Origin: Lacinutrix sp.
GTDB taxonomy: Bacteria; Bacteroidota; Bacteroidia; Flavobacteriales; Flavobacteriaceae
Reading direction: 5' to 3'
Length of the DNA stretch: 64,000 nucleotides
NCBI RefSeq assembly: GCF_029238095.1
Contig: NZ_JAQWGS010000024.1
Location: 78,568-142,567, forward strand
The stretch's first letter is position 1. The number at the start of each line of letters is the position of its first letter. The notes under the pieces were generated by a model. The model was not told the DNA's origin and searched no databases. It saw only the letters and a program-made list of their open reading frames with translations. Made by a program: the position numbers and the translations under genes. Below, one piece after another: positions 37,192-42,367 of this stretch.

Positions 37192-37713
37192 TTACTGCCA
37201 AAGATTGCTAACTTCTTCTTTAATAAAGGATAATCCTGCATGACTTGGTGGAACTTTATCTATCATATCTTTTAAAATAACTTCTCTTAGTTTATCTGCA
37301 GAATCTACAGTATCACTCGTAGAAGCTTTTCTAATAAGTTGAATCGTTGCATTTTTTGAAGCATTAATAAGCGTCCAGCAATCAGTAGTCACATAAATTT
37401 GTTGCGATAAATTATGTTCGAATTCTTGTTCTATACTATTAGTAAGTAGGCTTTCGTAATCGTCTTTATTAGAAGATATTGGCGCTACTCTTGTTAAAAG
37501 TTTGTTTGGCGAAATGCGCTCCAAAAATAACGAAAAGCGTTCGTAAGCTTGTAAACGTTGTGGTAAAGCTTCTTTTTGTAATTGCTTTAACATTAAAAAT
37601 CGACGTCTATTATCTTCATTTTGAACATGCTCTCTAAAAAATAAAAAAGCTATGGCACCAACAATTAAAGAAGGGATTACAAACATGAGTAAGTTAAGTA
37701 ATTGGTCTTCCAT
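37192..37713 (-). CDS. Membrane-anchored protein of unknown function
   Basis: 173 residues. One N-terminal transmembrane segment (LLNLLMFVIPSLIVGAIAFLFF, about 5-26) is followed by a charged helical cytosolic domain (DNRRRFLMLKQLQKEALPQRLQAYERFSLFLERI). The rest is helical (EFEHNLSQQIYVTTDCWTLINASKNATIQLIRKAS). Homologous small proteins seem conserved in Flavobacteriia but I cannot assign a named role. Convergent with the patatin gene, 29 bases apart. Confidence 0.7.
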   Translation of the reverse strand: MEDQLLNLLMFVIPSLIVGAIAFLFFREHVQNEDNRRRFLMLKQLQKEALPQRLQAYERFSLFLERISPNKLLTRVAPISSNKDDYESLLTNSIEQEFEHNLSQQIYVTTDCWTLINASKNATIQLIRKASTSDTVDSADKLREVILKDMIDKVPPSHAGLSFIKEEVSNLWQ

Positions 37714-37892
37714 ATATATCGTCTTTAGGTTTTAGCAAACTTAATATGTTTTTAATTAGTGTACAAGAAAAACCGTTAATGGAATGAACACTGTTTTTTA
37801 TAGAATGAAAACGCTAGGAGGTAAAATGGTAGTATTTTTCTTATAACAACTAAAGTATATTTGAATTATTGCTATTACCTGTATTAATTAAT

Positions 37893-37929
37893 AATCGTCA
37901 GTTTTAGTAATACATTTTAACCGACGATT
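37893..37929 (+). promoter_or_regulatory. Hairpin before the DUF7619 gene
   Basis: AATCGTCaGTT / AACcGACGATT followed by TTTTTC, 27 bases before the ATG at 37957. It could be a terminator for unseen upstream transcription or a structured 5' leader. The upstream region (37714-37892) has no gene. Confidence 0.4.
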
Positions 37930-37956
37930 TTTCTAAAACTATTAAACCTTGTACTT

Positions 37957-39753
37957 ATGAAAACAAAACTACTTTTAAAATTTCTCTTCTGTCTATTAGC
38001 TTTTAATTTATCATTTAGCCAAAATACACCTTTACCAAATGGTAGTTTTAATAATGCTGTTGATATTGGTTTTTGGTCTGTAGCCTCAAGTAATGCAACA
38101 AAATCTTGGTTTAATGGTGGTTGTCAATCTCTTTTTGTCGATAACTTACCAAACAATCCTAGTAATTTAAGTACAACAATTACATCATCTGTTTTTAGTG
38201 TTGGTTTATCTGGAAATTACGAATTAGAATTAGAGTATGGATTAATTTATTCTGGAACAGCACCTATTTTTGAATTTATAGATTCCTCTAATGCAGTTAT
38301 TAGTCCTACATCAACAACAACAGTTGCTGGAACTTGTACAGATTGGCCAAATGCTAAAAATAGTAAATTAGTTTTTTCCAATTTAAGCTCAGGGAATTAC
38401 CAATTAAGAATAACCATACCTAAATCACAGTTTTTTCTAGATGGAGCAGCATTAGGAGCTTATAATCCTATAACTGTAAGCGGTAGTGTAAACAATGCTG
38501 GTTGTTCAAATAGTAATATGTTGAATAATTTTCCAATGAAAATTACAAATCTAGGTGATAACTCAACAGCTTACACATCAACCATAAATGGAAATTACAC
38601 GTTTATGTTACCCGAAACTACAGGGAATTTTTTAATAGAGCCAGTTTCTAGCGGAAATATTGTAGCTACGCCAAATAGTATAAGTTTAACAATTAACTCT
38701 TTTTCTAGCTCTTATTTAAATAATGATTTTTGTTTAACAAGTAATATTAGCGGAATAGATGTTGAAACACAATTAGTTGCCCAAAACCTGGCAAGACCAG
38801 GATTTGTTGCTAATTATAATTTAATTTATAAAAATAATGGCGATACCACAACAGGAAATGAAACTATAGTTTTAAATTTTGATAGTTCTAAAATAGCGTA
38901 TGTTGCTGCATCTGCTTCAATTACACCAACAAGTACATCAAGTAATTCTATAACTTGGAATTATAGTAATTTAACTGCTCTAGAAATTAGAAATATAACA
39001 CTATCTTTTAATGTATTATCTCCACCAACGGTTAATGGTGGAGACCTTTTAAGTTTTACAGGAATTATTACATCAGTTTCAGATGCTAATCCAGTTAATA
39101 ATAGCATTAACTTAAATCAAACCGTTGTAAATGCTTATGACCCTAATGATGTGTTATGTTTGAAAGGCGATGAGATTTCACCATCACAAATAGGAGACTA
39201 TTTAACCTACAGAATCCGTTTTCAAAATACAGGAACTGCTTCTGCTGTAAATATTTCGGTTAAAACAGATTTAGATGCAGATTTAGATTGGACTACGTTT
39301 CAGCCAATTTCTGCTTCACACGCTTACACAACGTCTATAACCAACGGGAATGAATTAACATACAGTTTTAATACTATCAATTTGGCAGATAGTACATCAG
39401 ACGAGTCTAATAGTCATGGGTGGATTTTTTATAAAATTAAACCTAAAAATACAACAGTTGTAGGTGATGCGTTTGATGCTACAGCAAGTATTTATTTCGA
39501 TTTTAATCCAGCAGTAGTTACAAATACTTATACAACTACTATTGTTTCACCTTCAACTTATGTGCCAGACGATAATTTTGAAAACTATTTAGAAACACAC
39601 GATGCTAATGCAAATGTAGTTACTGTTGGAGATCCAACAAGTATACGGTTAAAAGGTAATTCTTCTCTGTTATTAGCCACAAAATATTGTCTCATTTCTG
39701 GACCAATACTTTCTAGCCAATATCGTATATGTCCAACAATAGGAAAGTTGTGA
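37957..39753 (+). pseudogene. Secreted DUF7619/leucine-rich repeat protein, 3' end deleted
   Basis: 598-codon ORF. Signal peptide MKTKLLLKFLFCLLAFNLSFS|Q, then an N-terminal beta region, a SdrD/B-like repeat region (about 170-260), a conserved-repeat domain typical of adhesins (about 265-390: ARPGFVANYNLIYKNNGD) and the DUF7619 domain (about 392-530: YDPNDVLCLKGDEISP, DYLTYRIRFQNTGTA, SNSHGWIFYKIKPK). Such proteins normally continue VPDDNFENYLETHDANG into leucine-rich repeats and a T9SS domain. Here VTVGDPTS (to about 39642) is followed by IRLKGNSS..., which is antisense of another gene. The repeats and sorting domain are gone, so secretion by T9SS is probably lost. Confidence 0.8.
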
Positions 39754-39863
39754 CTTATTGTATGTTTTTTTTGAAAGACATCACGAATAGCTATAATTAC
39801 TAAAACAATAATAATCCAAAGCCACCAAGAGATTGAAGATAGAAAGTTAAGAATGGTATTCAT
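39642..39863 (-). pseudogene. FMN-binding glutamate synthase family protein, N-terminal remnant
   Basis: First ~74 codons of a GltB-like glutamate synthase family protein: one transmembrane segment (MNTILNFLSSISWWLWIIIVLVIIAI) and the very characteristic KKHTISHNFPIVGHIRYWLESIGPEMRQYF and EELPFNR. Full-length family members are above 500 residues with a large FMN and Fe-S domain. After FNRI the frame turns into LVGSPTVTTF, which is the reverse strand of the DUF7619 gene, and stops. The ORF track reports the chimeric 92-codon frame 39585-39863. Only the N-terminal part is real; no enzyme function is possible. Confidence 0.8.
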
Positions 39864-40027: not shown

Positions 40028-42367
40028 TTGGAAAAATATTTAAGTCAGTTAAATGAAGCGCAATATGAACCAACAGTCCAAAAAAATGGACCTATGATTA
40101 TTATTGCAGGTGCAGGATCTGGTAAAACACGTGTTTTAACCTACAGAATAGCTTACTTAATGAGCCAAGGCATAGATGCTTTTAATATTCTTGCTTTAAC
40201 TTTTACAAATAAAGCTGCCAAAGAAATGAAAGGCAGAATAGCTGATATAGTTGGTGATGGAGAAGCTAAAAACTTATGGATGGGAACATTTCACTCTGTT
40301 TTTGCTAAGATTTTACGTTTTGAAGGACACCATTTAGGGTTTCCAAGTAACTTTACAATTTACGATACCCAAGATTCTCAAAAACTTTTAGGCTCCATTA
40401 TTAAAGAAATGGGCTTAGATAAGGATATTTATAAAACCAAGCAGGTTTACAGTAGGATTTCCTCATATAAAAATAGTTTAATTACTGTAAAAGCATACTT
40501 TAAAAATCCAGAGCTTCTAGAAGCTGATGCCATGGCTCGTAGACCAAAAATGGGAGACATTTATGCAGAATATGTAAACCGTTGTTTTAAAGCTGGAGCC
40601 ATGGATTTTGATGATTTATTATTAAGAACCAACGAATTATTAACTCGTTTTCCAGCTGTTTTAGCAAAATATCAAGATAAGTTTCGTTACATTTTAGTAG
40701 ATGAGTATCAAGATACAAACCACTCTCAATATCTTATTGTAAGAGCCTTGGCAGACCGTTTTCAAAATATATGCGTTGTTGGAGACGATGCGCAAAGTAT
40801 TTATGCTTTTCGTGGAGCAAACATAAACAACATCTTAAATTTCCAGAAAGATTACGACAATGTTAAAATGTACCGTTTAGAACAAAATTACCGTTCTACA
40901 AAAAACATAGTAGGTGCAGCAAATTCAGTAATCGAACATAATAAAACCAAATTAGATAAAATAGTTTGGACTGCTAACGACGAAGGTGAAAAAGTAAAAG
41001 TGCATCGCTCTTTAACTGATGGAGATGAAGGACGTTACGTTGCAAGTACTATTTGGGAAGAAAAAATGAACAACCAATTGCTAAACAGTGATTTTGCCAT
41101 TTTATACCGTACCAATTCGCAATCACGTGCTATGGAAGATGCTTTACGCAAGCGAAATATACCTTATCGTATTTATGGAGGTACTTCATTTTACCAGCGT
41201 AAAGAAATAAAAGACGTTACTGCGTATTTGCGTTTAATATTAAATTCGGCAGATGAAGAAGCTTTAAAACGAGTTATTAATTTTCCAGGTCGTGGTATTG
41301 GGCAAACAACAATAGATCGATTAGTAGTAGCAGCAAATGAAACTGGCAAAACCATTTTTGGTTTATTAAAGGAGATTGATACTATCACTATTAATATTAA
41401 TAATGGTACCAAAAACAAACTAAAAGACTTTGTTACTTTAATTGAGAGTTATCAAGTATTAAATCAAACAGCAAATGCTTTTGACCTAGCAGAGCATGTT
41501 ACTAAAACGAGTGGTTTAATTAGAGAGTTTAATAAAGATGGAACACCAGAAGGTGTTATGCGACTGGAAAATGTAGAAGAACTCTTAAACGGTATCAAAG
41601 ACTTTGTTGAAGGCCAATTAGAAATAGCAGATTCTAAAGATGACTTGGCAGAATTTTTAGAAGATGTCGCATTAGCTACAGATTTAGATGGAGATAAAGG
41701 CGATCCAAATCATGTGGCATTAATGACAATTCATTCGTCTAAAGGCTTAGAATTTAATCATGTATTTATTGTTGGTCTAGAAGAAGACTTATTTCCAAGT
41801 GCCATGAGCATGAATACAAGAAGTGAACTAGAAGAAGAAAGACGATTATTTTATGTAGCTTTGACAAGAGCAGAGAAAAAAGCACATTTAACCTATGCTT
41901 TATCTCGATACCGTTGGGGAAAATTAGTAGATTCTGAGCCAAGTCGTTTTATAGAAGAAATAGAAGACGAGTTTTTAGATATCATTACTCCAATAGAAGA
42001 ACGTCGCATTAACCCAATGTTATCAGCAGATATTTTTGGTGATGTAGAACCTAATACAATAAGATTTAAAAAAGCAGTACAACCTAAATTTATTAAGAAA
42101 GTGGCAAAAAAGAAAGAACCTGTAAACTTTGAAATAAGTGCTCCAAAAAAAATGAAAAAAGCGTCAGAAGTAGAAATACCAGCAGATGCTAATTTGTTTG
42201 ATGGAGAACTTACCGTTGGAAATAGAGTAAAACACTTAAAATTTGGTAGAGGAGAAGTGTTAAAAATTGAAGGAAAAGGTGCAGATAAAAAAGCCGAAAT
42301 TGATTTTGAATTTGGTGGCTTAAAAAAGCTGCTACTAAGGTTTGCTAAATTAGAAGTTATAGGTTAA
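40028..42367 (+). CDS. UvrD/PcrA-type 3'-5' DNA helicase (TTG start)
   Basis: SF1A helicase of 779 residues used in repair and in clearing RecA or RNA polymerase. Q-motif LNEAQYEP; Walker A GAGSGKTR (K33); Ia LTFTNKAAKEMK; II FRYILVDEYQDTN; III VVGDDAQSIYAFRGA; IV YRLEQNYRSTKNIV; V VALMTIHSSKGLEFNHVFIVG; VI ERRLFYVALTRAEK. The C-terminus carries a Tudor-like domain (about 730-779: VGNRVKHLKFGRGEVLKI) found in UvrD/PcrA proteins that bind RNA polymerase. Start: TTG 40028 (MEKYLSQLNEAQYEP), placing the Q-motif at its normal distance; no ATG in frame is suitable. Symbol pcrA or uvrD not decided. Confidence 0.95.
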   Translation: MEKYLSQLNEAQYEPTVQKNGPMIIIAGAGSGKTRVLTYRIAYLMSQGIDAFNILALTFTNKAAKEMKGRIADIVGDGEAKNLWMGTFHSVFAKILRFEGHHLGFPSNFTIYDTQDSQKLLGSIIKEMGLDKDIYKTKQVYSRISSYKNSLITVKAYFKNPELLEADAMARRPKMGDIYAEYVNRCFKAGAMDFDDLLLRTNELLTRFPAVLAKYQDKFRYILVDEYQDTNHSQYLIVRALADRFQNICVVGDDAQSIYAFRGANINNILNFQKDYDNVKMYRLEQNYRSTKNIVGAANSVIEHNKTKLDKIVWTANDEGEKVKVHRSLTDGDEGRYVASTIWEEKMNNQLLNSDFAILYRTNSQSRAMEDALRKRNIPYRIYGGTSFYQRKEIKDVTAYLRLILNSADEEALKRVINFPGRGIGQTTIDRLVVAANETGKTIFGLLKEIDTITININNGTKNKLKDFVTLIESYQVLNQTANAFDLAEHVTKTSGLIREFNKDGTPEGVMRLENVEELLNGIKDFVEGQLEIADSKDDLAEFLEDVALATDLDGDKGDPNHVALMTIHSSKGLEFNHVFIVGLEEDLFPSAMSMNTRSELEEERRLFYVALTRAEKKAHLTYALSRYRWGKLVDSEPSRFIEEIEDEFLDIITPIEERRINPMLSADIFGDVEPNTIRFKKAVQPKFIKKVAKKKEPVNFEISAPKKMKKASEVEIPADANLFDGELTVGNRVKHLKFGRGEVLKIEGKGADKKAEIDFEFGGLKKLLLRFAKLEVIG

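Follow-up and report, generated by a model that had tools for sequence, protein, structure and literature searches.

A probable recent deletion joining two truncated convergent genes in a Lacinutrix-group flavobacterium

In a marine flavobacterium from the Lacinutrix group, two convergent genes with conserved neighbours on either side are cut at one point, and both stumps were very probably made by illegitimate (short-homology) recombination that recently deleted part of the chromosome. The junction lies in a 64-kb window (the whole stretch of DNA analysed) from an assembly of 27 contigs that is 89% complete. On the plus strand it ends the 5′ portion of a DUF7619 surface-protein gene (37957–39644, 562 native codons), and on the minus strand it ends a gltS-like gene, which in intact form encodes a Glu_synthase domain, after its first 74 codons (39642–39863). 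Both genes are intact and convergent in Oceanihabitans sp. 2_MG-2023, and the parts missing from the window are absent from the rest of the assembly. From these observations we infer a single event, acting through short homology, that would have left both products non-functional, one without its catalytic domain and the other without its T9SS sorting signal.

Two reading frames with antisense tails

The plus-strand open reading frame (37957–39753) encodes 598 residues, with a signal-like N terminus and a DUF7619 domain (PF24595) at residues 395–528 (Pfam, E 2e-52), followed by the motif VPDDNFENYLETHDA...DPTS. Native surface-protein homology stops at codon 562 (AGT, 39640–39642). The last 36 codons and the stop (39643–39753) are the surface-protein frame read into reversed gltS-like sequence, and residues 559–598 match the gltS-like gene on the opposite strand by tblastn. 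A first-pass annotation made from the sequence had predicted that the protein should run on into leucine-rich repeats (LRRs) and a T9SS domain, as is the case in relatives: in a family homologue of 1746 aa (G112) the same DPTS motif is followed by LRRs and a sorting-type C terminus, and LRR_4 and Por_Secre_tail are both present in the Oceanihabitans orthologue. This orthologue is 76–77% identical to the window protein (77% over residues 21–545), and the start of its LRRs differs from the window gene after residue 545. Compared with proteins of the DUF7619 (PF24595)–LRR–T9SS type A (PF18962/TIGR04183) architecture, the window protein thus retains the N-terminal region and DUF7619 but lacks the LRR region and the sorting domain, with neither an LRR nor a Por_Secre_tail match to Pfam in the 598-residue frame. 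T9SS sorting domains function in export, and on this basis the stump should not pass through the T9SS.

The minus-strand open reading frame (39863–39585) encodes 92 residues, of which residues 1–74 are the N terminus of the gltS-like protein, a member of the FMN-binding glutamate synthase family, as the first-pass annotation had recognised. Ten of 12 same-genus genomes encode an intact protein, with an open frame of 520–537 aa, that these residues match at 77–88% identity; in G007 the match is 46% and the frame 532 aa, and the G008 copy is frameshifted. At the same locus in G008 (L207, G008:C1:3838000-3847000), the gltS-like, uvrD, patatin, and lipoprotein genes are all frameshifted, a pattern that suggests many assembly errors and not gene decay. 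Residues 75–92 of the stump, encoded with the stop at 39585–39641, are 18 non-native codons antisense to the surface-protein gene. In the intact protein of ~520 aa the Glu_synthase domain (PF01645) occupies residues 141–464. The stump shares the 74 N-terminal residues of these Flavobacteriaceae proteins but lacks the conserved domain and ~445 C-terminal residues, and the 92-residue frame has no Pfam match of any kind. The truncation therefore removed, as first proposed, both the surface-protein C terminus and the enzyme.

A full-length gltS-like frame (514–534 aa) is found in 78 of 80 named Flavobacteriaceae loci, and in the remaining two the contig ends inside the gene. By hand count, a strong gltS-like match is present in about 214 of the 301 family genomes and is absent or replaced by a weak, GltB-level one in the others, so the gene is dispensable. 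In the window, the 74-codon stump has a dN/dS of ~0.05–0.11 against relatives, 12 of its 16 lineage-specific changes (relative to G006 and outgroups) fall at third positions, and it contains neither a stop nor a frameshift. Judged from these substitution patterns, the stump appears still to be constrained, with most of its divergence predating the truncation, and the loss of the gltS-like gene would therefore be recent.

The junction at base level

Alignment with relatives places the junction at 39642–39644. The DNA matches surface-protein genes through 39644 and gltS-like genes from 39642, so that, as had been claimed, both genes lose their 3′ ends at one point. At the breakpoint, the sequence is AGTATGGG in all 11 intact LRR starts that were compared, (T/C)TCTATACG(A/G)TTAAA in most of the gltS-like genes of the genus, and AACAAGTATACGGTTAAAAGG in the window. 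The only sequence common to both parents is TAT, a 3-bp microhomology, and the breakpoint therefore lies inside it. The first-pass annotation had placed the breakpoint in or beside the palindrome GTATAC (39641–39646); TAT does fall within it, but the palindrome is itself a product of the join (AAGTAT + TATACGG) with only TAT being parental, and we therefore rejected GTATAC as a pre-existing hot spot. Given the base composition, three or more shared bases are expected at ~7% of random joins, so the microhomology proves little. No terminator or promoter signal above chance was found at the junction, and base composition shows no step across it. A search for the same junction in a second genome found none in the named collection, which may omit the window's own genome.

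The scar resembles pseudogene pairs and chimeric open reading frames that result from a single illegitimate deletion in its one-point truncation, its few-base microhomology, and its collinear flanks. It differs from them in that the window genes are convergent, each reading into the antisense strand of the other, with no sense fusion. In Salmonella, confirmed spontaneous deletions had microhomologies of ~8 bp or more, and a threshold of ~8 bp separated true deletions from library chimeras (PMC3411829). The window junction, at 3 bp, is shorter than those of the confirmed deletions, falls below this threshold, and is no longer than the microhomologies of artificial chimeras.

A conserved locus with a variable spacer

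The stumps are flanked on the left by a DUF7935 gene (37192–37713, minus strand) and on the right by a uvrD-type helicase gene (40028–42367, plus strand). Among 80 named Flavobacteriaceae loci, the nearest being that of Lacinutrix sp. g3_MAG_00006, the uvrD, gltS-like, DUF7935, and patatin genes stand in the same order in most. The gltS-like and DUF7935 genes share a strand in all 85 loci measured, and the spacer between them can be as short as 13 bp or as long as 15 kb. Lipoprotein genes and a LytTR two-component pair occupy it in several Lacinutrix genomes, and the cargo islands that other Lacinutrix carry there, compared with the window, reach 13.7 kb. In Oceanihabitans sp. 2_MG-2023 the convergent gltS-like gene and DUF7619–LRR–T9SS orthologue lie between uvrD and DUF7935, in a spacer that contains, in order, a T9SS protein, a two-component pair, lipoproteins, the DUF7619–LRR–T9SS orthologue, an LRR–T9SS gene, and a second DUF7619 gene (the two-component pair and lipoproteins being named from reading their translations). 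Relatives thus have longer versions of both genes.

Oceanihabitans sp. 2_MG-2023, from the one related genus in which the intact pair was seen, gives through its gene content the nearest view at hand of how the parental locus may have looked. The first-pass annotation had proposed one deletion between convergent neighbours. The relatives support the deletion, but in Oceanihabitans ~6.8 kb of other genes separates the gltS-like gene from the DUF7619–LRR–T9SS orthologue, so the parental genes need not have adjoined. Between uvrD and DUF7935 the ancestor would have had the gltS-like gene, still intact, and convergent with it a DUF7619–LRR–T9SS gene, possibly with further genes between the pair. 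Of the two deletion ends, one would follow codon 74 in the gltS-like gene and one would fall where the LRR region begins, and joining of the ends at the common TAT would have left each stump to run into the antisense of the other up to a chance stop, giving the 92- and 598-residue frames. At least ~2.5 kb would have been lost if the two genes were direct neighbours, and perhaps ~9 kb, as the points equivalent to the breakpoints in Oceanihabitans are ~9.3 kb apart. The ~6.8 kb of intervening Oceanihabitans genes and the Lacinutrix islands mean that the loss may exceed the two gene ends.

The spacer itself (window 37714–39641; L199:1791-16740; L200-L203) carries varied secreted-protein and two-component cargo and is a possible insertion and deletion hot spot. 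Tentatively, it may be a site of turnover for DUF7619/LRR/T9SS arrays, lipoproteins, and the LytTR pair, in which the scar would record one event that deleted cargo together with part of a conserved neighbour. We also considered an Oceanihabitans-like donor for the gltS-like stump, because of a shared LESIGPEM motif, and dropped the idea since the motif occurs in 72 of the 80 family loci.

Deletion and its alternatives

The main competing explanation, already raised in the first-pass annotation, is an assembly or library artefact in which both genes are really intact and the DNA separating them was passed over by a misjoin or a chimeric read. The assembly is incomplete and in many contigs, a short microhomology fits a chimera, a further gene, 9 kb away, has a frameshift when compared with relatives, and a constrained, undecayed stump is what would be expected were the gltS-like gene in fact intact. 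Against this, both flanks keep the gene order and orientation seen in many relatives. The shared 3 bp is also too short an overlap for the usual kind of assembler misjoin within the 64-kb window, in which no 14-mer from around the junction recurs. A search for the missing halves, which could lie in sequence that the 89% complete assembly lacks, found them on no other contig: there is no remainder of the gltS-like gene, the best match to the missing part being a GltB-type protein at 31% identity on contig C27, no LRR tail after the VPDDNFE motif, and no close copy of the two genes that occupy the spacer in other Lacinutrix. Contig C1 was considered as the home of the lost cargo and rejected, as it holds an 824-aa paralogue, 40% identical, that adjoins a saccharopine dehydrogenase-like gene on a 5-kb contig. 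The collinear flanks, the halves missing from the assembly, and the lack of a long repeat at the junction lead us to favour deletion, and an artefact, for which there is little positive support, is unlikely.

Elsewhere in the window, a flavin amine oxidase gene (PF01593; 29893–30965, minus strand) is split into two open reading frames by a frameshift. Its parts are in one frame, at the same place beside recG, in four same-genus genomes, and the split is either a second recent pseudogene or a sequence error; an internal deletion was rejected, as there is a frameshift only.

Insertion of a pre-truncated surface-protein fragment that replaced the 3′ part of the gltS-like gene is very improbable. 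Spacer cargo differs greatly among species, with genes that come and go, and the LRR onset is unlike that of the Oceanihabitans orthologue, but the scheme requires a separate truncation and an insertion that also removed 1.3 kb of gltS-like sequence, and the surface gene retains its own start ~240 bp from DUF7935, like the nearest gene in the intact Oceanihabitans array. That the short products function in their own right can practically be dismissed: both frames are open and the enzyme stump has a purifying pattern, but the enzyme domain and the sorting domain are wholly missing, the tails are antisense sequence, and recent loss explains the purifying pattern.

The scar is a clear, well-resolved example of an ordinary and already known kind of gene loss. 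For annotators it is a warning that both open reading frames are stumps with antisense tails. Read as a deletion, it shows gene loss of recent date, with a junction resolved to the base and a parental state that can be inferred, and one event would have removed an enzyme kept by many Flavobacteriaceae and disarmed a T9SS surface protein.
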